45,684 bases of DNA from positions 1 through 45,684 of the forward strand of contig JANXRL010000098.1 of assembly GCA_025352985.1 (NCBI GenBank), read 5' to 3'. The stretch comes from Verrucomicrobiota bacterium (GTDB lineage: Bacteria; Verrucomicrobiota; Verrucomicrobiia; Opitutales; Opitutaceae). Of this stretch, positions 35,208-45,684 are shown one piece after another. Numbering within the stretch: the stretch's first letter is position 1; each line of letters begins with the position of its first letter. A model generated the notes under the pieces. The model saw only the letters and a program-made list of their open reading frames with translations. It was not told the origin of the DNA and searched no databases. Both the position numbers and the translations under genes were made by a program.

Positions 35208-35660
35208 TTAGATTCCGATGCGGCGCATCAAATCGCCGAAGTTCTCACCGGCGGTGCGCTGTTCCACTCGGCTCCAACGGTCGGGGCTGTAGAGGCTAAA
35301 TTTTGTCAACGAGCCCACCAGCACGGCGTCCTTTGCGATGCCGGCATGCGTAAGCAAATCGCCGTTAAGCATGATGCGCCCCTGCTTGTCGAAACCCAGG
35401 ATCTGCGTCTGCGAGAAAAAGCGGGCGGCGAAATCCTGGGCCGAACCATCCGACAGCGCGATCGCCTCAATCTTAGCGCGAAGCTTGGCTACCTCGGAAG
35501 GCGGCAGGATGGCAATGTAGCCGTCAGGATGCGGAGTCGCGAGAAACTGCTCCCCTTCATCGTGTGCGGAACGCCACGCCGACGGAATCGTGACACGATT
35601 TTTGTCGTCGAGCGCGTGCCTGAAAAGGCCGGTGTAGGAAGCTGTGCCGATTTGAGCCAT
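35208..35660 (-). CDS. mraZ: MraZ, transcriptional regulator of the dcw operon
   Basis: MraZ (150 residues) has two AbrB-like beta-barrel halves, each with the D-x-x-x-R motif: LDDKNRVTIPSAWR near residues 16-29 and LGFDKQGRIMLNGDLL in the second half. It forms a ring that binds direct repeats upstream of its own gene and represses the cluster in bacteria where it was studied. The ATG at 35660 (MAQIGTASYTGLFRH) fits the family; an upstream ATG at 35705 would run through the predicted MraZ boxes. First gene of the dcw operon, with a transposon inserted about 80-120 bases upstream. Confidence 0.95.
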   Translation of the reverse strand: MAQIGTASYTGLFRHALDDKNRVTIPSAWRSAHDEGEQFLATPHPDGYIAILPPSEVAKLRAKIEAIALSDGSAQDFAARFFSQTQILGFDKQGRIMLNGDLLTHAGIAKDAVLVGSLTKFSLYSPDRWSRVEQRTAGENFGDLMRRIGI

Positions 35661-35684: not shown

Positions 35685-35720
35685 CTCCACTATGCTCCAT
35701 TTCAACCCATTTTAACCCAC
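35685..35720 (-). promoter_or_regulatory. MraZ-binding repeats in the dcw promoter region
   Basis: On the minus strand, four TGGR units (TGGG, TGGG, TGGA, TGGA) repeat at exact 10-base spacing at about 35716-35719, 35706-35709, 35696-35699 and 35686-35689. TGGGN repeats with 5-base spacers are the known MraZ operator. A TTGACT that could be a -35 box lies just upstream (minus strand, near 35724-35729). The boxes overlap where RNA polymerase would bind, consistent with autorepression. Confidence 0.75.
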
Positions 35721-35780
35721 GCTAGTCAAGACAACTTGGAGGTAAATCACTCATTTTGGGGCGAAAAAATTTATCACTTG

Positions 35781-36082
35781 TGTAAAAAGTCACTTTCCAC
35801 TGTAAGACGGTAGAAGTCATACCGACAGGCCCCAAGTCATGCCGACGGACGATGAGGTGACTACTTTTTTAACTCACTAAACATAAGTGTGATAAAAATA
35901 ATAAGGCACCAACTTATACCTGCCGTTTTACGGATTGCCATAGGTCTCAATTTACAGAAAACTACGGTAAACGCTCCAAATTGGAAATTTTCCCGCAAGT
36001 TTCTGCCCTAAAATGTCCTAAGTCATGCCGACGGCGGGCGGCGAATCGCGTTTCCGTCAGGCAGGGAAGAAGTCATGCCGAC
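35781..36082. repeat. Left end of a Tn7-like transposon with four putative TnsB sites
   Basis: Four direct copies of aagtcatRccgac occur at 35814-35826, 35834-35846, 36020-36032 and 36070-36082; the first two are exactly 20 bases apart, the last two 50. Part of a fifth (aagtcac at 35787) lies further left. Such spaced direct repeats next to a TGT terminus are the layout of Tn7-family ends bound by TnsB. Candidate termini are TGTAAGAC at 35801 or TGTAAAAA at 35781; the other end is outside the window, so the exact tip and target duplication cannot be fixed. The stretch 35860-36000 is AT-rich and has no gene. Confidence 0.65.
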
Positions 36083-36244
36083 GAGAAATTTAGCCGGTTA
36101 AAATCACCGCGAAAGTTTCTTTCTAAAAATTCGGGCACGGGCGCCAATCCGAGGAAGTGGCCGGTATCAGGGTTCTATGCACCTGAACACCACACCATCG
36201 CCGACGCCACCGACGGCACGCGCTTTCAACGCTAACCATTCACC

Positions 36245-36895
36245 ATGGACGACCAGGTATTCCGGCAAATCACTCGTGTCCGCGACTATTTCAGCGACAC
36301 GAAGAACTACCACCAGCTGCTTCAGCATGCCTCGACCGAGGCTTCGCTGTATCGCTGGTTCTCCTCTCAAAGTCGTTCCATGCCACGAGGGAATCTAGCC
36401 GAAGATCTGGTCAACGACCTGATCCAGCAGGTCTTGGAGGAAGACCCGCGCTCCCCCACCCGGAGAAAAATCCCCGACCACGTCGAAGTCGGCCTGGCAC
36501 TCCGCCAGCACCTGCGCAGCAAGTTCAGCGCCCTGTCCCGCTCGAAGGAAAATCGCACCCTACAACGAGAAACAGACCTGGCCAACGCCCAAGACGAAGA
36601 CGGTTCCCGCGAATCCCCATTAGAATATACCGTTCCCCTGTGGGGCCAGCCCGATGAAGACGACGACGAGCAAAAAACTGCAGCGATGAGCCGGATCGAC
36701 CGTTTCCTCAGCTTCATCGCCGGCGACCATCTTCTCTGTGCCATGATCAATCTAGCCCGAGACGAAAATCTTTATAAACCGGACGAACTTATAGCACGTC
36801 GGCTCGACGTGACCGTAAAGGACATCTATATTACCAAGAAGAGACTGAAATCCGCACGGCAGCGCTTCGCAAAATCCGAACAAAATCAAAAATGA
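36245..36895 (+). CDS. Sigma-70-like factor in transposon cassette
   Basis: A 216-residue protein with the layout of a small sigma factor. AEDLVNDLIQQVLEE followed by HVEVGLALRQHLRSKFSALSRSKENR resembles region 2 (core binding and -10 recognition), an acidic linker lies at 115-145, and DELIARRLDVTVKDIYITKKRLKSARQRF at the end resembles the region 4 helix-turn-helix. The match is by pattern, so a sigma-like DNA-binding regulator is the safer claim. It is the first gene of a three-gene plus-strand cassette beside the transposon end, and its stop overlaps the next start (ATGA at 36892-36895). The ribosome-binding site is weak. Confidence 0.55.
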   Translation: MDDQVFRQITRVRDYFSDTKNYHQLLQHASTEASLYRWFSSQSRSMPRGNLAEDLVNDLIQQVLEEDPRSPTRRKIPDHVEVGLALRQHLRSKFSALSRSKENRTLQRETDLANAQDEDGSRESPLEYTVPLWGQPDEDDDEQKTAAMSRIDRFLSFIAGDHLLCAMINLARDENLYKPDELIARRLDVTVKDIYITKKRLKSARQRFAKSEQNQK

Positions 36896-37335
36896 GCGCG
36901 GACCCAAAGACACCTAAAAACAAAAGTATTCAATTTCCCAATGCAGCGATAAATCTTATCGTGGGCACGGACGAGGACACGTCCTCCATGTCGGAGACCG
37001 AAATCAAACAGGAACTCCGTGAAGAGGGCGTCGATCCGGACGCCGCCTGGGCGAAAGCGAAGAAGCTTTTGGACACCGCCGGCGGTCGACTGAAGCTGGA
37101 ACAGGCGCGACGGGAACGTCTCGCGGCACAGCAGACGGTTGCCGCCGCCACGTCTTCTACGACGGAGTCGCGTGAATCCATCATCGAACAGATCAAGCGC
37201 CTGCTCGCGCTCGAACCTTCGGCGGCGGTCTATGCCCGTAAGTGGGAAGACGGCGATCTGGCCGCCTTGATTTCGCTGCGGGACAAACTCGCAAGCACCA
37301 GCGCGCGCGACCTCGCCCGGAAAAATGCCAGCTGA
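36892..37335 (+). CDS. Small unknown protein between sigma-like and ImmA/IrrE genes
   Basis: A 147-residue soluble protein I do not recognise. The first 30 residues are polar; ETEIKQELREEGVDPDAAWAK (split: ETEIKQELREEG, VDPDAAWAK) and KLLDTAGGRLKLEQARRERLAAQQ look like a helical block, then a Thr/Ser/Ala linker and a second helical part (ESIIEQIKRLLALEP). No membrane segment. It overlaps both neighbours (4 bases with the sigma-like gene, 11 with the peptidase gene), so the three are made together. By position it could be an inhibitor or anti-sigma partner cleaved by the downstream peptidase; this is an inference. Confidence 0.6.
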   Translation: MSADPKTPKNKSIQFPNAAINLIVGTDEDTSSMSETEIKQELREEGVDPDAAWAKAKKLLDTAGGRLKLEQARRERLAAQQTVAAATSSTTESRESIIEQIKRLLALEPSAAVYARKWEDGDLAALISLRDKLASTSARDLARKNAS

Positions 37336-38110
37336 TCCACGGTTGCTGATCGCGGCCTTCCGTGCGCAGAAGCTTTTGGAAAATTACGGCATCACCCGTC
37401 CCACTGAAATCGTCCTTGAGGACATGGCGTGGGCCATGGGGATTCAGGTGACGAGCGCACCCTTGGCCGGTGCGGAAGCCCATCTGGTGCGCGTCGGCGA
37501 CACCGGCACAATCACGCTCAGCGACGCCATCACTGAAACCGGGCGGCGGCGCTTCGCGCTAGCCCATGAGCTCGGCCACTGGGAACTACACCGGGATCTT
37601 TCTCAGGTGTTCTTTTGCAGCGAGGCCGACATGCGCCAGTATCAGCACAGCGGACCGGAAATCGAAGCCAACACCTTCGCGTCCGAACTGCTTCTGCCGA
37701 AAATAATGATCGATGCGGCCTCACTGAAGGCGGAACCGGATTTGGAAATCATCCGCGGCTGGAGCCAGATGTTCAATGTCAGCTTCACCTCGGCAGCGGT
37801 GCGATATGCCGGGATTACCCGGCAACCCGTGATGGTCGTTTTCTCCGATCGCAACCAGGTCCGCTGGTGGCGGCGGAACGATGAACGCTTGGCCGGCCTT
37901 TGGTTCGAGGCCGATCAGCCCCTTGGCGCAGGCAGCATTGCAGCCGATCTTAAAAACAACCCGCGTCAGTCCGGCGTTATGAGTCCAGTCGATTGGTCGG
38001 CCTGGTTCCCTCATTTAGAGGACAAAGGCGAAGAGGTGTTTGAGTGCGCGGTGCCGTTGCACCCCTACCAAACCGTCCTGTCGTTGCTCTGGTTACCGTC
38101 CCGTTATTGA
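37325..38110 (+). CDS. ImmA/IrrE-family metallopeptidase
   Basis: A 261-residue zinc peptidase of the ImmA/IrrE (M78) type. The metal site is H81-E-L-G-H85 in FALAHELGHWELH, with E114 in IEANTFASELLLP as third ligand. Known members cleave a DNA-bound repressor or regulator after DNA damage or another signal (ImmA-ImmR, IrrE-DdrO). The C-terminal hundred residues are of unknown type and may sense the signal. Here no XRE repressor is adjacent; instead the peptidase follows a sigma-like and an unknown protein, which makes one of these its likely substrate. Last gene of the cassette. Confidence 0.85.
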   Translation: MPADPRLLIAAFRAQKLLENYGITRPTEIVLEDMAWAMGIQVTSAPLAGAEAHLVRVGDTGTITLSDAITETGRRRFALAHELGHWELHRDLSQVFFCSEADMRQYQHSGPEIEANTFASELLLPKIMIDAASLKAEPDLEIIRGWSQMFNVSFTSAAVRYAGITRQPVMVVFSDRNQVRWWRRNDERLAGLWFEADQPLGAGSIAADLKNNPRQSGVMSPVDWSAWFPHLEDKGEEVFECAVPLHPYQTVLSLLWLPSRY

Positions 38111-38538
38111 TAAATGGCCAGATTTTACGCCCCCGATTCCAGTAGAGGATTCGAGGGCGCTGTTGTGCTCGCCAAAGGCGGAAATTGAACGCTGCGGGTA
38201 GTTTTTAGCTACCTAGGCTTCAATAAGCAGCCTGCGTTCGTCTCACCACGATGATAACGGTCTTATGCCCTCTCGTGGATGAGCGATTTTTTATTCTAGC
38301 ATTCACAAGAGTGCATAAAACACGAGGCACATCAAGAAGGGGCTTACAGTGGTTTGTTTTTTTCAGCCTCGCCGCCTGCGAGCCCAGAAACAATAGCGAG
38401 CGGCTTAATGCTGCTGCATAATCGATTGCGGTGCCCTTCTTTGCGGCCAGATGCTTCCGCGTGGTCGAGCTGGAGGCATGTATTGATGGCCAAACCGAGA
38501 ATGCTCAAGCAGGGGTCCGAATACACTGACCGGCGAGC
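38111..38538. other. Gene-free convergent spacer with one hairpin
   Basis: About 430 bases separate the ImmA/IrrE gene from the convergent ATPase gene. At 38128-38159 an imperfect 13-base stem (11 pairs) built on cgccccc/gggcg with a six-base loop follows the peptidase stop by 17 bases; it lacks a T-run but may act as a terminator. I searched the rest for CRISPR-like repeats and further copies of the end repeat and found none, nor a convincing small gene. Confidence 0.5.
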
Positions 38539-39576
38539 CTATGGAGCATGCAAGACCACCCAGCGACGGAAAAAAGGATCGTCGAAAATGACTCCGGTCT
38601 CCATGCGCACCAGCACCTGACGTCCCACGAGGACTGCAACCGCAGCGGATGCCGTCGACGCGGCCCGTAATCCATAGGCACGCAGAGTCACAGATGCCGC
38701 GGGCGGTTTGCCGGCCGCGACCGCACGTAGCACCAGACGTTGGTTTATGGAAAACGACCGCCAGTGCTGAACGAAGCCGTCGCTCAGGTCATGCAAAACG
38801 AGAAAATCAAAGGCCCTCTCAACGACGTCCTTTGGCGTGCCGCCCACGGTGAAATCAAGCACCGCCCCGGCCAGACGGACAATATCACCGGTGCATGGGC
38901 CGGCCGCCGCCACGATCTGCGCACCGTATGGAAAATCAGACCGACCGGCTGCTTTCGCTTTCCGCTCAATCCAGCGCGCCAGTCGATCAGGATCAATCGG
39001 ACCAACTTCCATCTGCTGGAGCTGTTTGTAAAATGGTGCCTTGGGGCCTGCCAGTCGGTCGATCACACGGTAGTCGGCAACAACCAGGATATAATTGAGG
39101 TGCCGGTGCTCCTGCATGAGGCCGCGCAGACGCCAGTCGATACGCGGGCCACCCAAGCGATAAAGCTCCTGAAATTCATCCAGACAAACCGTCCATGCTT
39201 CATCTCTGGCACCGGCATGCTCATTGAGAAAGTTAAGGACACCTTCCAAAATCACATTTCCGTCTTCCGTCCGGAGATCCTCCGTGAGGGCAATCTTTCC
39301 ATCGACGACAGCCACGTCCGGCAGATGGCGGGCGGCGATTTGAAGTGCCTGAGCCAAGCCCTCTCCACACCCCTCCGGGGCCATAGCCAACAGTCTCCGG
39401 TTCACCTCACCCATGCCGGCCACCGTCAACATGTCACAATACAGCAAGGTAGCCCTCGCCCGGCACGCCGCATTTTTAACAAGCGATGTCTTCCCCATGC
39501 GCCGCCGCCCCAGAAGGAGAAGCCGTCGCCCCCGTTCGGTCATCAGCTCTGCAAGCTTGGGAATGAGTGCCGTCAT
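38539..39576 (-). CDS. DEFQ-type P-loop ATPase paired with second TniQ
   Basis: A 345-residue P-loop ATPase. Walker A is GRRRMGKT (23-30) and Walker B is TVCLDEFQEL (D133-E134), the pattern of the archaeal-type/STAND ATPase branch, not of TnsC/TniB. A lid and a C-terminal winged-helix-like part follow, ending FDDPFFRRWVVL as in that family. It starts 27 bases after the second TniQ gene on the same strand. It may serve as an alternative loader between that TniQ and target DNA, or as a defence-type NTPase carried as cargo. It is intact with both nucleotide motifs. Confidence 0.7.
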   Translation of the reverse strand: MTALIPKLAELMTERGRRLLLLGRRRMGKTSLVKNAACRARATLLYCDMLTVAGMGEVNRRLLAMAPEGCGEGLAQALQIAARHLPDVAVVDGKIALTEDLRTEDGNVILEGVLNFLNEHAGARDEAWTVCLDEFQELYRLGGPRIDWRLRGLMQEHRHLNYILVVADYRVIDRLAGPKAPFYKQLQQMEVGPIDPDRLARWIERKAKAAGRSDFPYGAQIVAAAGPCTGDIVRLAGAVLDFTVGGTPKDVVERAFDFLVLHDLSDGFVQHWRSFSINQRLVLRAVAAGKPPAASVTLRAYGLRAASTASAAVAVLVGRQVLVRMETGVIFDDPFFRRWVVLHAP

Positions 39577-39603
39577 TTTTTGGAAGAACGCCGGCGCGGT
39601 TTG

Positions 39604-40440
39604 CTAGTCCACCTTGGTTTGCCAAATCGAAGTCAGATCGCGCGCCAGTTGAGCCGCTTGAAATTTCCCGCCCACCGCCGCTTGAAAAATAGAGACCGGC
39701 AATGGTCCGTGCAGCATGGCATGCACCAGCAAAGCAGCAGCCTGCTGTGCCGCCCACGGGACCGGCAAACGCATCCAAAGAACCGCTGCCTTGTATCGGC
39801 GCTCCCGCTGGAACCGGAGCAGGCATGTGGCCGACAACCGTAAAAATTCCGCTGGCGTCAAACTCCGCACGTAGTGGCCGTTGAACGCACGGACCCAATA
39901 TTGGCTCATTTTAACCACGAGGGGATGCGCCGGTTGACCACGGTCAAAGCGTTTCCAGCAACCGGGGCAGGTCGGCCAGTTTTCCAACCAATGCGCCACC
40001 AAGGGACCTTCCGATGAGCTGAAGTATCTGAGCGGTGTCCCACAATGGATGCAGAAACCGACCAATTCTAACCCATGCTCGGGGCAAACACAGGCAAAAT
40101 GCGTGCGCCAAAAACGACGTCCATGCGGACTTTCTTCGAGACAGCCCGGACATACCCGGACGGGCGCCTGATGTCTCTGAATCGACGCATCCCACGTTGA
40201 CGCCGTCCATGATCGCGGAATCGACAGCGCGCGAACCACGTCCTCCGGTATCTTGGCCAACAATGCCAGCTCCCTAGAATGTCTTCTCGGCAAAAGCTGA
40301 TCGAGATCGCTTCTGGCTTGGGTGCGAGTGAGTCCCAAGTGTCCCTGGCAAAACTCCTGAAGCGATAATCCTTCCCGCCTCGCCAGACGTAACGCGAACG
40401 ACGACGCGCTTTCATCTGGAAGAGGAAGGAGGATCGACAT
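39604..40440 (-). CDS. Second TniQ/TnsD-family protein
   Basis: A 278-residue TniQ-domain protein. The N-terminal LPDESASSFALRLARREGLS and SRELALLAKIPEDVVRALS match TniQ, followed by zinc-binding pairs C97-x2-C100, C117/C119 with H122, C130-x2-C133 and C158-x2-C161 (VCPGC, CVCPEH, CIHCG, CPGC). TniQ/TnsD proteins choose the target site and recruit TnsC. It is shorter than the TniQ next to tnsC and clearly different from it, so it is not a recent duplicate. It is linked to its own ATPase and lies 40 bases from the outer-membrane protein gene. Confidence 0.8.
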   Translation of the reverse strand: MSILLPLPDESASSFALRLARREGLSLQEFCQGHLGLTRTQARSDLDQLLPRRHSRELALLAKIPEDVVRALSIPRSWTASTWDASIQRHQAPVRVCPGCLEESPHGRRFWRTHFACVCPEHGLELVGFCIHCGTPLRYFSSSEGPLVAHWLENWPTCPGCWKRFDRGQPAHPLVVKMSQYWVRAFNGHYVRSLTPAEFLRLSATCLLRFQRERRYKAAVLWMRLPVPWAAQQAAALLVHAMLHGPLPVSIFQAAVGGKFQAAQLARDLTSIWQTKVD

Positions 40441-40479
40441 CAGGTTCGCCTTACCGCCTACACCGCAATCAACGTCTCG

Positions 40480-41136
40480 TTACCAAGAATATCCTGCGGA
40501 GAGGGCGAAGCTGGGGCGGAGAGAGGACTTCTCGGTAGTATGGGCGAGGCCGCCGTATTCGCTGTAGGTGCTGCCGGAGGCCTCAAGGAGCTGGGCGGCG
40601 GCGCCGACGCTCCAAGCCTTGCCGATCTTGGCGTTGAGCCCGACCGTGCCGCCGCCGGCGAACTTCCAGTCCGAGTCGCTGGTCTCGCCGGTTGGGCCGA
40701 CATAGCCGCCGCCGAGCTTCACGATGGTCTGGGTGTGCTTTTCGTGGATGAAGCCGACGGAGGGGCCGGCGAACACCGTGAAGCGTCCCTTAGCATCGAG
40801 AGGCAGGTGGTAGCGGTAGTTCAGGAGCAGGGGCACCTGTTCGGCCGTCGAGTGGCCGTCGGCGACGCCTACGACCACGTTGTGCGGACCGGTCCACTTG
40901 GTGTAGCCGGTGGACAGGCTAATTTCGTGCTTCTGGTCGAACAGCACGCCGCCGGTAAGGCCGGTGCCGAGTTCGTAGCCGTTCGGCGCGAACGTCGAAC
41001 CCTTGTATTTGAGGCCCGAGTCCGTGTAGGTCGCTTCGGCCTGCACGAACGGCGTCACCGTTTCGGCCATCGCAGCGGACGCGAGGCCCGCCAGCGAAAT
41101 AAGGAATGCAAAGGCAATGGCTTGAGTAGTCTGCAT
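40480..41136 (-). CDS. Outer-membrane beta-barrel protein
   Basis: A 218-residue protein with a signal peptide (residues 1-24, cleaved after AMA) and alternating beta-strand pattern (TPFVQAEATYTDSG, EISLSTGYTKW, VPLLLNYRYHLPL, FTVFAGPSVGFIH, SFALSAGYSW). It ends in an aromatic residue, the usual BamA recognition signal. It fits the small eight-stranded OMP_b-brl/OmpW-like barrels. Why a transposon carries it is unclear. It is transcribed divergently from an XRE regulator, with operator-like dyads between them, and could be a surface receptor or permeability change regulated by that protein. Confidence 0.75.
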   Translation of the reverse strand: MQTTQAIAFAFLISLAGLASAAMAETVTPFVQAEATYTDSGLKYKGSTFAPNGYELGTGLTGGVLFDQKHEISLSTGYTKWTGPHNVVVGVADGHSTAEQVPLLLNYRYHLPLDAKGRFTVFAGPSVGFIHEKHTQTIVKLGGGYVGPTGETSDSDWKFAGGGTVGLNAKIGKAWSVGAAAQLLEASGSTYSEYGGLAHTTEKSSLRPSFALSAGYSW

Positions 41137-41181
41137 AGTAATAAAAACGATTTAGACGATTCTGTTGCCCATTTTCATTAT

Positions 41182-41242
41182 GGGTGAAGTCCACCCGCAT
41201 TTCGTGCGGCTACCGGATAAAGTCAATGGGTGAAATTCACCC
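41182..41242. promoter_or_regulatory. Two operator-like dyads between the barrel and XRE genes
   Basis: gggtgaaattcaccc (41228-41242) is a perfect 15-base palindrome with one central base. gggtgaagtccaccc (41182-41196) is the same site with arms broken at two positions. Centres are 46 bases apart. The pair lies in the 113-base divergent spacer, and the second copy ends seven bases before the preferred XRE start, so binding would block its transcription or translation initiation. Confidence 0.65.
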
Positions 41243-41249
41243 GCTCGTT

Positions 41250-41489
41250 ATGAAAAAGACCGCCGAAATACGCGGTCGCAACCTGATCGGAGGGAAGTTG
41301 AGAAAACTTCGCCTGGCCAAAACGCCCGAGATCACGCTGGAAGACCTCGCCGGCAGACTGGCAGCTAGAGGGGTGCATTTGGACAGATCCGCCATCGGCC
41401 GCATTGAAAACGAAAAACGCTACGTCCTAGACTACGAGTTGAAGGCGCTGGCCGATGCGTTGCGGGTGAACGTCGCAGACCTTTTCTGA
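41250..41489 (+). CDS. XRE-family helix-turn-helix regulator
   Basis: A 79-residue Cro/CI-type protein from the ATG at 41250. GGKLRKLRLAKTPEITLEDLAGRLAARG covers the first helices (read in parts), LDRSAIGRIENEKRYV is the recognition helix region, and LKALADALRVNVADLF ends the fold. In-frame starts further upstream (41226, 41184) would overlap the palindromic operators and are unlikely. It is divergent from the barrel gene; it probably represses itself and that gene. There is no separate sensor domain. Confidence 0.85.
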   Translation: MKKTAEIRGRNLIGGKLRKLRLAKTPEITLEDLAGRLAARGVHLDRSAIGRIENEKRYVLDYELKALADALRVNVADLF

Positions 41490-41533
41490 ACCCAGTCGGA
41501 TTGGCGCCGCCTACCAGCGGCCGCCCCCGCCTG

Positions 41534-42538
41534 TTATGCGGCGACCGGAAACAGGCTCCAGGCATCCATGGCCGGGTTCGAACTCAGCACGCCTTGGCAC
41601 CGCACCAGACTCCAATCGACCTGCAGCCCCAACGTTTCCGCCAACTGGAATAGTTCGTAGCGGACAGCGTTGTCCAAATCCGCACCGGAAATCCGTTTTC
41701 CCATAATGAGCCAATAATGCTCCGTGAGTGCCGGATGGAGTTCATCCAGCCGATGCGCGGCCAGCGATACTTGGGCGAAGCGCAATGCCCGCGAAACCGT
41801 CCCCTCCCCCGTGGCCAACAAACCAAGGTTGGACAGATTCATCAAAGTGGCGGTCAACTCCCGCATGACCGGGTCCCCTGCGTTGAATAGCATACGGGCC
41901 GCCCGCCAACTGGCAGCCCAGTGCGCCACCCTGCCGTCTTGGGCCACCAAGGGACCACGTGCCAGAATGCCATCAAAACGAACGCTCCATCTGGCCGCTT
42001 CCTCAATGATGCCAACCGGCGCCAGTATACGCGCACCCAACGACAAATGATCACCACAGGTAGAACACAGCGGAAGAGTCCTGCCCCAGACGACCTCGGT
42101 CAGCTTTTGATCGCAACAAGGACAGTGCCTCACAAGCAATGCCTCATGCCGGGTGCACACCAGCGCATCAGGCCTCAACCAAGACTTACGCCAGTGCCCT
42201 GATTCCCGCAGGCAACAGGGGCAATGGGCGCCATAGCCAGGTTCACGCGCCCATGGCGCATGGCCTTGTGAGCGGCACTTTCCCTCCGCTTGGCCAAACA
42301 ACCACGACCGTTCGGACATCCCCCAAAGCTCTTCCTTGGATGCGTTGAAGAACCGGGACAGGCTTGCCCAATCAAAATCGCGGTGTTCTGCCGCACGCGA
42401 ATCCTGAAGGTGCACCCCGGCCGCCAGCAGATGGATATCCTCGTCGGTGTATTCCGCATCGACCTGAACTCTGGATAAAAACGACATCAGCGTCTCATCC
42501 TCGGCCGGCCGCAGGGGAGAAATGAGAAACGAACGCAT
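41534..42538 (-). CDS. tniQ: TniQ-family target-selection protein adjacent to tnsC
   Basis: A 334-residue TniQ protein. FLISPLRPAEDETLMSFLSRVQ is the N-terminal TniQ pattern; zinc ligands are C106-x2-C109, C128/H131, C139-x2-C142 and C158-x2-C161 (CPCC, CTRH, CPCC, CSTC). The remainder is a helical DNA/protein-binding half. It follows tnsC by 5 bases, the normal position in Tn7/Tn5053-type elements, so this is the resident selector. Whether it recognises a chromosomal site or another cue is not visible. Confidence 0.85.
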   Translation of the reverse strand: MRSFLISPLRPAEDETLMSFLSRVQVDAEYTDEDIHLLAAGVHLQDSRAAEHRDFDWASLSRFFNASKEELWGMSERSWLFGQAEGKCRSQGHAPWAREPGYGAHCPCCLRESGHWRKSWLRPDALVCTRHEALLVRHCPCCDQKLTEVVWGRTLPLCSTCGDHLSLGARILAPVGIIEEAARWSVRFDGILARGPLVAQDGRVAHWAASWRAARMLFNAGDPVMRELTATLMNLSNLGLLATGEGTVSRALRFAQVSLAAHRLDELHPALTEHYWLIMGKRISGADLDNAVRYELFQLAETLGLQVDWSLVRCQGVLSSNPAMDAWSLFPVAA

Positions 42539-42543
42539 AGGTG

Positions 42544-43467
42544 TTATCCAACGGTGGCAACCGAGGCACTCGGCAGCAGCAGCGCCTTTTCCATGGCCTC
42601 GGCATCAATGCATGGTCGGTTGTTGCGCACGGCCCAAGCCGCCGCCGCGTTGCACTGCGAAACCACATCCCCCGTGATGCCGAGCGTTTTCCTGTAAATG
42701 CGATTCATCATCGCCTTCTCCCCCAACCCGGACGGTTTCGGGAGGGGATAAAACGCCTCCAACGAGTGCAGGAAGTTCATGAGATCCTCCCCTTGGGTGA
42801 AGCTGTTGACGCGAATGACCCTCATGCGATTGGCCACCTGCTCATCTTCGGCCAACATGATCCGGGCCTCTTCAGTGCCGACGGCGATCACGCTCACCCC
42901 CTGATTGGAGATGCCTTTGACCATATCAAGGACCACCTGGCGCTCACACCTGGGCAACGGTTCAATATGATGGAATTCCATCAGGATCAAAATCCGGACT
43001 TTTTTGGCGACGAGCGCGCGGTAAACATGATCGCTCACCAACCGTGATTTTGAATTCGCATAACCCGCCAGACCCAGAGCCCGGGCGATCGCCAGACACA
43101 CCCGCGGCTCGGTGGCGCGCGGCGGCATTTCCACCATCACGACCGGCATTTCATCGTGGTTGCCAAAAATCTTCGTGTGATCCCCGCCCATATCGCGCAG
43201 GAAGCGATTCGCGATGGCCGTCTTTCCCTCGTTGCTGTTGCCGATGACGGCAAGACAAGGAGGTCGGATGCAGGGGGGCCGATTAAAGATGTCCTTCATC
43301 GCGCTCAACACCGGCTTGGCCTTGTCATGCAGGATAAAGCGGTCGGTGTTGATCCAGCGAAGGCGTTCTTCGATGGGTGTGGCCAGCAGCGCCGCGGTAT
43401 CCGCCAGAAGATGCGGATGCTCTTGGTCCATGTCCGTGGAAACAGATGCACAAGGTATGGTATTCAT
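42544..43467 (-). CDS. tnsC: TnsC/TniB-like AAA+ transposition regulator
   Basis: A 307-residue AAA+ protein that bridges TniQ and the transposase. Walker A is GNSNEGKT (76-83). The Walker B strand reads ILILMEFHHIE, so the usual D-E is M163-E164; the catalytic glutamate position is kept but the metal-binding aspartate is methionine. Sensor 1 is VSVIAVGTEEAR and an arginine finger-like ANRMR follows. The order TnsB (3-base gap) - TnsC - TniQ (5-base gap) fixes the identity. Length is typical of the TniB-sized group. Confidence 0.88.
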   Translation of the reverse strand: MNTIPCASVSTDMDQEHPHLLADTAALLATPIEERLRWINTDRFILHDKAKPVLSAMKDIFNRPPCIRPPCLAVIGNSNEGKTAIANRFLRDMGGDHTKIFGNHDEMPVVMVEMPPRATEPRVCLAIARALGLAGYANSKSRLVSDHVYRALVAKKVRILILMEFHHIEPLPRCERQVVLDMVKGISNQGVSVIAVGTEEARIMLAEDEQVANRMRVIRVNSFTQGEDLMNFLHSLEAFYPLPKPSGLGEKAMMNRIYRKTLGITGDVVSQCNAAAAWAVRNNRPCIDAEAMEKALLLPSASVATVG

Positions 43468-43470
43468 AGG

Positions 43471-45441
43471 TTAATAATCTTCGTGACCTCCGGTCACAGG
43501 GAGAAAAACGGGACGGTAGGCCGGCTTCGTCTTGGCCTCCGGAGGCGGCTCCGGTTTGGCTGTTGTTGCGGGCAGATTTTCTTCCCCATGGAGTTGGCGC
43601 ATTCCCCGGTTGCGGTTGTCCGTGATCCGGTCCTTGCGTTTGGGTGCCCCCGGTTTGCGGGCTGATTCCGCCTCAGCTTCCTGCTTGTTGAACAGGGCCT
43701 CGACCACCCCCGAGGTGGGTTCGGCATGTCCGGCTTGGCGTAAACGCGAATAGATCAAGTCCCATTCCCATTTGGAGGGATTGGTCGCCTGACGGAGCTC
43801 CTCTTCGGTCATCGGGTATTTTTCGAGCTCCGGCACCCACGGCACCCGAATGATTTTTTCTCCGCCCTTCCCGTCCGGCACCTTGATGAAGACCGCGTTC
43901 AGTCCATAGGGGTTGTAGCGGAACGGCACTCTCCGCAGGGACGAACGTTTATTGACGACGAACAACGCCTGTAGCTCAGGAGTGCGATAAGCGCGGTTTT
44001 CCCAGGAAATCCCCAGGTGGTTTACCACTCGGTAATCCTCACACATGAAATCCCAATCGAGTTCGTCCGACGGCGCCAGCGGTGTAGACAGACCCGATGC
44101 CGGCAACCCGTCTCGGCCTTCGGCCAGTTTTTCAAAACGTGAGTTGGGCGAGTCTCCGCCAAGCCCTTTGTGCCCGCGGTTGTGATAATCCACGACGATC
44201 CATTCCAGCAGCGCGCGGTCCAAATCAACAAGACGGATGCCTTTAGCTTTTGGGCTCCCCTTCACTTCGCGCAGGTAGCGTTTCCCGATCTCCGACTCCA
44301 AAAACGCGTCGAATAATTTGTGGGCGGTGCGGTTGAAGCGCTCTTCCTTACCGCGGTAGTGCGGCGTTCCCACCGGCGAGGACTCGTTGAAGCCCATGTC
44401 CAGGTCCTTGAGGACACGCTGGAGATGCTGGGCGATGAACTCCGAACCGTTGTCGTGACGAATCTCGCCCACCTTTCCGCTATAAGGATACACTCCGGCA
44501 ATCCCGTATTCACGGAGCAGCGGCTCCTTGGACAACAGGCCTCGCTTGATGCTGAGGCCCGCCAAGTAGCTGTTGGCCGCGCCGACAAAGGCCTGGAACG
44601 TCCAGATTCCCCGGTTGGACCCCAACAGACCGAAAATCACATTCGCCGGCCCCATGTCCTGTCCTTGGTCGTTCACCACCCGCAAGACATCCGTTTCCTC
44701 ACTGGTGAACATCGTGGTATCGAGCTGGACTAACGACATCAGCCCGAGGGATTCGGCGGGTTTTTGAATGACCCTGAACAGGTGGTCACGCTCGTAGCTG
44801 TCCGCCTTGGCTCTGATGATTCGCTCCGACTTGGAGTGCTTGCGGAGCGTTTTGTCCGTCGGGAGTTTCCCCTGCCAGCCATTGGCCGCAAGGTAGGCGC
44901 GGATGGCCTTGATGGCCTGCTCACGGCCAGGGCGCAGGCCATCGACGACACAGACCTGATCGATGGCCTTCCAAAACAGCTCCGGCTTGTTGTCTTTTAA
45001 CCGGCACCCGCATTTACCCCCTTTCGTTGCTTTTTTGAGAAAGCTGGAGACACGGACGTTTTCCGGAGCGGTCTCACAAATGTGCCGGACGCGGTCGTAG
45101 ATGAAATCCGCACCGCAGCCGAGTTTGGCGGAGAGTTCGCCGACATGTTCTTTCAGGCTGAGGCGTTCGGTGCGTTCGACCTGATTGCCCGTGGACAAAT
45201 CCCACACCGTGTAGGGGCGGCCCAACTGCGACAGCGCAAAGGGCATGAGGCCGGCCAGTCGGGCCGAGCCGATCTCAGGATCGGTTTCCGTCTGGTTGCG
45301 ATGCCCTCGTGGTATGGCCGACCGACCGGGTTCGATGATTACCCACCCGTTGGAAGCGGCGGCGGCGGTCGTCCCTTCGTTCTCACTGGGGGTTGAGGCC
45401 GGTTCGGCAGATGCCAGCGGGTCGGTTTCGTGAATGCTCAT
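43471..45441 (-). CDS. tnsB: TnsB-like DDE transposase
   Basis: A 656-residue retroviral-integrase-fold transposase that binds the ends and joins them to target DNA. An unstructured N-terminus (1-60) precedes helix-turn-helix DNA-binding domains (60-230). The catalytic core has LVQLDTTMF (D241), IRHDNGSEFI (D330) and GKEERFNRT (E367), followed by a Mu-type C-terminal barrel (RNRAYRTPELQALFVV-like part) and a basic tail (KPGAPKRKDRITDNR) that likely contacts TnsC. It follows tnsA by 16 bases. Confidence 0.92.
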   Translation of the reverse strand: MSIHETDPLASAEPASTPSENEGTTAAAASNGWVIIEPGRSAIPRGHRNQTETDPEIGSARLAGLMPFALSQLGRPYTVWDLSTGNQVERTERLSLKEHVGELSAKLGCGADFIYDRVRHICETAPENVRVSSFLKKATKGGKCGCRLKDNKPELFWKAIDQVCVVDGLRPGREQAIKAIRAYLAANGWQGKLPTDKTLRKHSKSERIIRAKADSYERDHLFRVIQKPAESLGLMSLVQLDTTMFTSEETDVLRVVNDQGQDMGPANVIFGLLGSNRGIWTFQAFVGAANSYLAGLSIKRGLLSKEPLLREYGIAGVYPYSGKVGEIRHDNGSEFIAQHLQRVLKDLDMGFNESSPVGTPHYRGKEERFNRTAHKLFDAFLESEIGKRYLREVKGSPKAKGIRLVDLDRALLEWIVVDYHNRGHKGLGGDSPNSRFEKLAEGRDGLPASGLSTPLAPSDELDWDFMCEDYRVVNHLGISWENRAYRTPELQALFVVNKRSSLRRVPFRYNPYGLNAVFIKVPDGKGGEKIIRVPWVPELEKYPMTEEELRQATNPSKWEWDLIYSRLRQAGHAEPTSGVVEALFNKQEAEAESARKPGAPKRKDRITDNRNRGMRQLHGEENLPATTAKPEPPPEAKTKPAYRPVFLPVTGGHEDY

Positions 45442-45457
45442 GGAAGTGTCTGACTCC

Positions 45458-45682
45458 TCATACCGAGCCGGGATACAGTTTCGCCGACTGATCCAAAATT
45501 TTCGTGAAATCCACCTTGAGGTGATGCGTCGCGACCAGCCGCCAGACCTCGGGGATCATCTGCAAACGAGCAATGGTATCCAGTCGCAGGACCGATGTCA
45601 GAGCGCCCAAGGCAATTCCGGGATTGGCTTTGACGTGGGAGATGATTTCAGGGCCGGCAGGATGCGCGGCATGATTCCGATG
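45458..45682 (-). CDS. tnsA: TnsA-like endonuclease, C-terminal 74 residues only
   Basis: An open frame enters at the window edge and ends 16 bases before tnsB. Seventy-four residues are visible, including NPGIALGALTSVLRLDTIARLQMIPEVWRL (read in parts) and HHLKVDFTKILDQSAKLYP, a winged-helix pattern as in the C-terminal domain of TnsA, which cuts the 5' ends and binds TnsC. The position directly upstream of tnsB supports this; the catalytic domain is not in the window, so the call is provisional. The 5' part of the gene is outside. Confidence 0.6.
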   Translation of the reverse strand, partial: HRNHAAHPAGPEIISHVKANPGIALGALTSVLRLDTIARLQMIPEVWRLVATHHLKVDFTKILDQSAKLYPGSV

Positions 45683-45684
45683 AT

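Follow-up and report, generated by a model that had tools for sequence, protein, structure and literature searches.

A Tn7-like transposon with two short TniQ proteins that probably homes upstream of mraZ and carries an archaeal-type ATPase as a likely passenger

The window analyzed here is one whole contig of 45,684 b (G000:C57) from a draft genome of 2.88 Mb in 199 contigs. It carries a Tn7-like gene set in which the gene of a second TniQ protein is followed by that of a P-loop ATPase (TniQ2 and ATPase2 below). The question raised by this locus is whether TniQ2 and ATPase2 work together as a target selector of the transposon, or whether one or both of them are there for other reasons. The reading that we consider likely is that the Tn7-like transposon homes upstream of mraZ, with TniQ2 belonging to the element and ATPase2 being a passenger.

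In Tn7-like systems, according to the accessible portions of two reports, TnsB binds arrays of sites at the ends, TnsA and TnsB excise the element, and TniQ/TnsD recruits TnsC, which connects the transposase with the target protein (PMC11406308, PMC8649781); five verrucomicrobial host species are on record there (PMC8649781). In the window, the corresponding genes lie on the minus strand and encode the C-terminal 74 aa of TnsA (45458-45682, cut by the contig end), the DDE transposase TnsB (43471-45441), a TniB-type TnsC (42544-43467) and TniQ1 (41534-42538, 334 aa). The order TnsA-TnsB-TnsC-TniQ given by the first-pass annotation was thus confirmed, with TnsB, TnsC and TniQ1 intact and TnsA present as a C-terminal piece, and the TnsB, TnsC and TniQ/TnsD genes adjoin as in a Tn7-like transposon. 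TnsC matches TniB (PF05621) at 2.9e-38. The Mu-transpos_C match of TnsB (6.4e-4, 20.1 bits) is slightly under the Pfam cut-off of 21.7, and its DDE residues align with those of three other TnsBs. The TnsA piece has a Pfam match of 0.0085, below the cut-off, and is 42% identical over 57 aa to the TnsA part of a TnsA-TnsB protein in G363, a genome of another genus. As a separate observation, the Walker B aspartate is missing from TnsC of the window (LILMEFHH) and of G363 (VVFVEMDH; L135 5144-6040), with the glutamate kept; three other TnsCs read I(I/F)DE(I/F)H at this position.

The first-pass annotation had placed the element at 38539-45684. The genes are there, but the left boundary is not, and the element extends left to about 35779. 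Its left end (35779-36084) lies between mraZ (35208-35660, minus strand) and a plus-strand three-gene operon, and holds four perfect AAGTCATRCCGAC repeats at 35814, 35834, 36020 and 36070 (spacing 20/186/50). Preceding this array on the mraZ side are TGTAAGAC at 35801 and TGTGTAA at 35779. The latter is the proposed terminus and lies upstream of mraZ, ~120 bp from its probable ATG at 35660 (start chosen by eye; the longest frame begins at 35705). Seven matches to the repeat with up to two mismatches occur in the window, a number reached by 0 of 100 shuffles. The four left-end repeats look like TnsB sites. A second AAGTCATRCCGAC cluster, as expected for a right end, was found nowhere in the assembly. 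Since the assembly contains neither the right end nor the flank that would show a 5-bp target duplication, the outer boundary at 35779 was proposed by eye.

To examine the insertion site, mraZ upstream regions were compared among 13 genomes of the window's genus (14 loci) and 13 genomes of genus g51. The mraZ gene is 97-98% to 87% identical in 13/13 genomes of the window's genus. Upstream neighbours of mraZ vary between genomes, so the shared sequence belongs to the mraZ side. Three TGGG(N6) boxes (35694-35720 on the minus strand), which we take to be MraZ-box-like, are common to the mraZ upstream loci and kept in the upstream alignment. A TTATTCACA-like motif, presumably related to the DnaA box, occurs ~95-110 bp from the mraZ ATG in 9/14 loci of the window's genus and 13/13 of genus g51, under a pattern that allowed a few variants. 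The pattern found no match in three loci with an element or remnant (window, G002 and G012), nor in G003 and G007, the last of which has TTATTCACC in its place. This motif precedes the TGGG boxes in most loci of the two genera and may be part of mraZ control.

Repeat arrays at mraZ were detected in three of the 27 upstreams (window, G002 and G365), with those of G006 and G367 being too short to judge. G002 has a four-repeat array with the window's spacing of 20/186/50 and 0, 1, 2 and 1 mismatches, followed downstream by homologues of cargo genes 1 and 2 and then, by eye, an IstA/IstB insertion; no tns gene match was found in the 10-kb stretch. G365, of the second genus, has five matches with 1 or 2 mismatches, four of them spaced 20/179/49, and no tns gene match within its 19.5-kb stretch. 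A single repeat is left at mraZ in G012, and one 2-mismatch match each in G364 and G213 is at a level that chance may give. A single longer TniQ, perhaps from a different element, is encoded on a separate contig in each of G002 and G365. Taken together, 5 of 26 genomes from two genera (G000, G002, G012, G363 and G365) have an element, end array or remnant upstream of mraZ, where G012 is counted by one repeat and G363 by its tns genes. The cargo (left) end of the window element faces mraZ, and the G363 element has the same orientation to the gene, giving the fixed attachment site and fixed orientation by which a Tn7-like transposon is recognized. Which end faces the recognized site varies among Tn7-like elements, as stated in the accessible part of PMC11406308.

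Of the 252 family genomes searched with TnsB, five matched, including the window's own, and the only strong match was on G363:C23 (2.8e-108). This stretch (L135) encodes TnsA-TnsB in one frame (818 aa) and homologues of TnsC, TniQ1 and TniQ2 in a run, followed by a 205-aa gene on the opposite strand and then mraZ. Identities between the window and G363 are 41% for TnsC, 36% for TnsB, 30% for TniQ1 and 32% over 158 aa for TniQ2. The G363 TniQ2 frame overlaps TniQ1 by ~50 bases, and its whole protein scores 26.3 bits against PF06527, slightly under the cut-off of 27. L135 lacks an ATPase2 relative. No copy of the window's repeat was found at mraZ of G363, and the ends of that element were not found by repeat search. 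In addition, G363 TniQ1 (L135 6037-6969) lacks several zinc ligands of window TniQ1, with SPAAL for CPCCL and DPTSE for CTRHE.

TniQ2 (39604-40440, minus strand, 278 aa) and TniQ1 are encoded 1.1 kb apart; the G000 genome has no further PF06527 match. Both are above the 27-bit cut-off (5.2e-17 and 63.2 bits for TniQ2; 5.7e-11 and 43.7 bits for TniQ1). Sister placement of the two was rejected by the AU test (p 0.005); on this sequence evidence, they are not recent duplicates. Among the TniQs compared, the best match of TniQ2 is G363 TniQ2 (1.7e-18), followed by a plasmid TniQ (1e-11). In direct comparison, window TniQ2 matches G363 TniQ2 at 7e-20 and G363 TniQ1 at 2e-8. In the tree, TniQ1 of the window and of G363 are joined with 99/96 support and the two TniQ2s are not joined; grouping of the TniQ2 pair was not rejected by the AU test (p 0.30). 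Because the tree leaves the TniQ2s unjoined, the link between them is drawn from best match and gene order. The predicted structure of TniQ2 is poor (mean pLDDT 61), and its top-ranked PDB chains in the fold search are TniQ/TnsD, none reaching E 0.001. Single-sequence searches with TniQ2 returned its own match only among 56 relatives, and its own plus one in G213 (8e-5) among 288 phylum genomes; searches of viral contigs with TniQ2 and of plasmids with TniQ1 gave nothing informative. The first-pass annotation held that a decayed homologue would speak against an extra selector. TniQ2 does not appear decayed: its frame is open, its zinc-ligand cysteines/histidine are kept, and it has the G363 counterpart. 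It looks like a genuine part of the Tn7-like element.

ATPase2 (38539-39576, minus strand) is encoded 27 bp from tniQ2, and the description of a second, shorter TniQ beside a P-loop ATPase with a DEFQ Walker B proved correct. This Walker B is invariant across the alignment of 28 ATPase2 relatives, and Walker A is intact. ATPase2 matches the profile of PDB 2fna at 3.5e-25 and has a winged-helix-like C-terminal part; its model (mean pLDDT 90.8) is nearest in fold to the archaeal AAA+ proteins 2fna and 2qen, and then to Cdc6/Orc1. With its P-loop, DEFQ-type Walker B and 2fna fold, it is an SSO1545-type archaeal ATPase. TnsC is an ORC-like AAA+ protein. The two ATPases, annotated as unrelated, are so by sequence, though perhaps not by fold. 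ATPase2 resembles the SSO1545-type ATPases in fold and sequence profile, but differs from them in following a tniQ gene and in lacking the N-terminal NPF..F..R segment. The segment is missing from the window protein alone among the 28 aligned relatives; the other 27 have it, a few of them with single changes. Codons upstream of the ATPase2 ATG (..APAFFQK) are faintly like the lost segment and continue in the same frame up to the TniQ2 stop codon. We read the tniQ2/ATPase2 boundary as a probable junction that removed the 5' end of the ATPase2 gene. The two genes are co-directional and share one reading frame, which has a chance of 1 in 3. We therefore also considered that a stop codon might have divided a former TniQ2-ATPase2 fusion; no fused protein was met among the relatives seen.

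Relatives of ATPase2 at 44-50% identity were found in Opitutae and Verrucomicrobia records, and 18 of 25 weaker loci are from Bacteroidetes, as taken from the record title or the genus. The first-pass annotation proposed a search for TniQ2-ATPase2 pairs across genomes. None was found: a local TniQ profile detected no TniQ at any of 37 ATPase2-relative loci (34 distinct), many of which end at contig ends, and no ATPase2 relative occurred in the 31 other TniQ-bearing family stretches, G363 included. This profile was made from 20 TniQs and, at E 1e-3, recovered 13 of a further 18 Pfam-positive stretches; L180, L188, L190, L193 and L196 escaped it. In a Pfam genome search of seven ATPase2-bearing genomes besides G000, G007 alone had TniQ, and there the TniQ and ATPase2 genes lay on different contigs. 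Four stretches outside the family and not among the 31 (L044, L046, L053 and L054) had no match to the single ATPase2 sequence. Searches with ATPase2 of plasmids, genome contigs (single sequence) and viral contigs gave nothing informative. A conserved TniQ2-ATPase2 module was rejected, the pair being seen in these searches nowhere but in the window.

G007 has relatives of ATPase2, of an OMP beta-barrel-like protein (51%) and of a small HTH protein (51%), both also encoded in the window, within 2.4 kb and beside a metallophosphatase, with no tns genes in 15 kb. The ATPase2 relative there (L013 4805-6631) starts 18 bp after the metallophosphatase gene, whose product matches the PADLOC candidate PDC-S10 at 4.6e-7. 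Since ATPase2 is absent from G363 and 30 other TniQ stretches, its relatives have no TniQ beside them and its N-terminal segment has been lost, it is most likely cargo. The earlier proposal of TniQ2 as an additional selector survives in part: TniQ2 looks like a second TniQ of the transposon and has a counterpart in G363, but a TniQ2-ATPase2 unit did not hold.

As the first-pass annotation had noted for the visible part, no selector of the CRISPR, TnsE or recombinase type was detected. Positions 35700-45684 contain no direct repeat of >=20 nt within 400 nt and no Rfam match, and Pfam and NCBIfam scans of the main genes there gave no TnsE or recombinase family; cas genes are also missing from the visible part of the element. 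CRISPR guidance was rejected for this part, with no array, Rfam match or cas genes.

Dual TniQs in one Tn7-like element are well known and ordinary. A survey lists, in its accessible part, 2,905 loci with one TniQ/TnsD protein, 998 with two and 50 with a higher number; one protein of a dual locus is usually >400 aa, and a short TniQ is interpreted as pointing to a further selector (PMC10293859). In our family set, TniQ was present in 23/252 genomes, and pairs within ~2 kb were also found in G357, G448, G432 and G489. As far as the available text of PMC10293859 and PMC11406308 describes them, dual TniQ/TnsD Tn7-like transposons, including CAST I-B1, I-B2 and I-D, share with the window element TnsB, TnsC and two TniQs, a TnsA (known in the window from its probable C-terminal piece), repeat arrays at the end (seen in the window at the left), and insertion next to a conserved gene at a constant site and in a constant orientation. 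In contrast, the window TniQs, of 334 and 278 aa, are both short, no CRISPR part is seen, and the site is the mraZ upstream region rather than glmS, a tRNA gene, parE or comM. Tn6022, with a short TniQ plus TnsF (PMC10293859, same part), is similar in that its short TniQ apparently needs a partner and is adjoined by a same-strand gene, whereas the neighbouring gene in the window encodes an archaeal-type ATPase instead of a tyrosine-recombinase derivative and does not accompany TniQ elsewhere.

In the preferred reading, and following established Tn7 biology, TnsB would bind the end repeats, TnsA and TnsB would excise and join the element, and TnsC would act as the AAA+ adaptor brought to the target by TniQ. 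One TniQ would direct insertion to the mraZ promoter region and the other would serve a second targeting route, each perhaps with a partner, because both are short. ATPase2, OMP and HTH would be passengers around tniQ2 that split an ancestral tniQ1-tniQ2 run, the ATPase2 N-terminus having been lost at the junction with tniQ2. With both TniQs short and no known selector in the visible part, several readers of the mraZ site are conceivable: one of the TniQs acting directly, a host protein that occupies the site, the product of a gene past the end of the contig or, with lower probability, ATPase2. A narrower version, which we hold to be doubtful, is that the site is read through a bound host protein (MraZ on the TGGG boxes, DnaA on TTATTCACA) or a recruited Orc-like ATPase2 with TniQ2, in a lineage whose TniQs are both short and which would have no known type of DNA-binding selector.

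ATPase2 might instead be the working partner of TniQ2, an Orc-like AAA+ protein newly recruited as a selector or licensing factor that acts via TniQ2 on TnsC. The shared strand and frame and the 27-bp gap, as partners often have, are consistent with it, and so are the intact Walker A and B motifs, a confident model with DNA-binding-type ATPases nearest after the archaeal ones, and the shortness of both TniQs, which the accessible part of PMC10293859 takes as a sign of an extra selector. Such a pair has been found only once, however, and ATPase2 is missing from G363 and has lost its N-terminal segment, so we regard this as unlikely. TniQ2 could also be left over from a different, earlier Tn7-like element at this site and be unused by the present one. 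Remnant ends at mraZ in G012, G002 and G365 indicate that several elements used the site, TniQ2 lies 1.1 kb from TniQ1, and the TniQ2s form no supported clade; against these stand the open frame and kept zinc ligands of TniQ2 and the TniQ2-like gene immediately after TniQ1 in G363, which make a remnant quite improbable.

A defence module with a borrowed TniQ domain would fit the CapP-like gene in the same cargo and the PADLOC matches of ATPase2, all very weak (best 0.0044). The pair does not occur elsewhere, and the TniQ2 counterpart of G363 lies within a tns run; we give this reading hardly any weight. The first-pass suggestions of a selector that bypasses TnsC and of a TniQ-derived defence module gained no positive evidence.

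We regard as new the use of the mraZ promoter region by a Tn7-like lineage that has two short TniQs, rather than any TniQ-ATPase system. We found no report of mraZ homing by Tn7-like elements in the portions of the open-licence PMC literature consulted. Short TniQs without a recognizable selector partner are named as an unsolved class in the accessible part of PMC10293859. A short-TniQ element with a defined site in two genera and clear DNA landmarks makes target reading directly testable, and the control region of a division and cell-wall operon is an unusual 'safe' insertion site.

The three plus-strand genes beside the left end encode a 216-aa protein (cargo gene 1, 36245-36895), a 147-aa protein (cargo gene 2, 36892-37335) and a CapP-type ImmA/IrrE-like protease (cargo gene 3, 37325-38110; Pfam Peptidase_M78 4.7e-18, PADLOC capP 2.8e-59). 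Cargo gene 1 has no Pfam, PADLOC, NCBIfam or PHROG family; its homologues occur in 4/252 family genomes, including one at the same end in G002, and a plasmid search with it gave nothing informative. Cargo gene 2, also with no assigned family, adjoins a gene 1 homologue in G002 and G339. The whole trio (window 36245-38110) recurs in G339 (L137 8134-9999), with no tns match in 15.6 kb and, by eye, near an apparent defence cluster. Between the two TniQ genes, the OMP beta-barrel-like protein (40480-41136, minus strand; below the Pfam cut-off) is probably cargo, and the small Cro/C1-type HTH protein (41184-41489, plus strand) is probably cargo or a regulator. Relatives of the HTH protein occur in five of the 31 other TniQ-bearing stretches (L045, L047, L180, L186 and L189); two further stretches, L013 and L138, have such a relative but no TniQ match.
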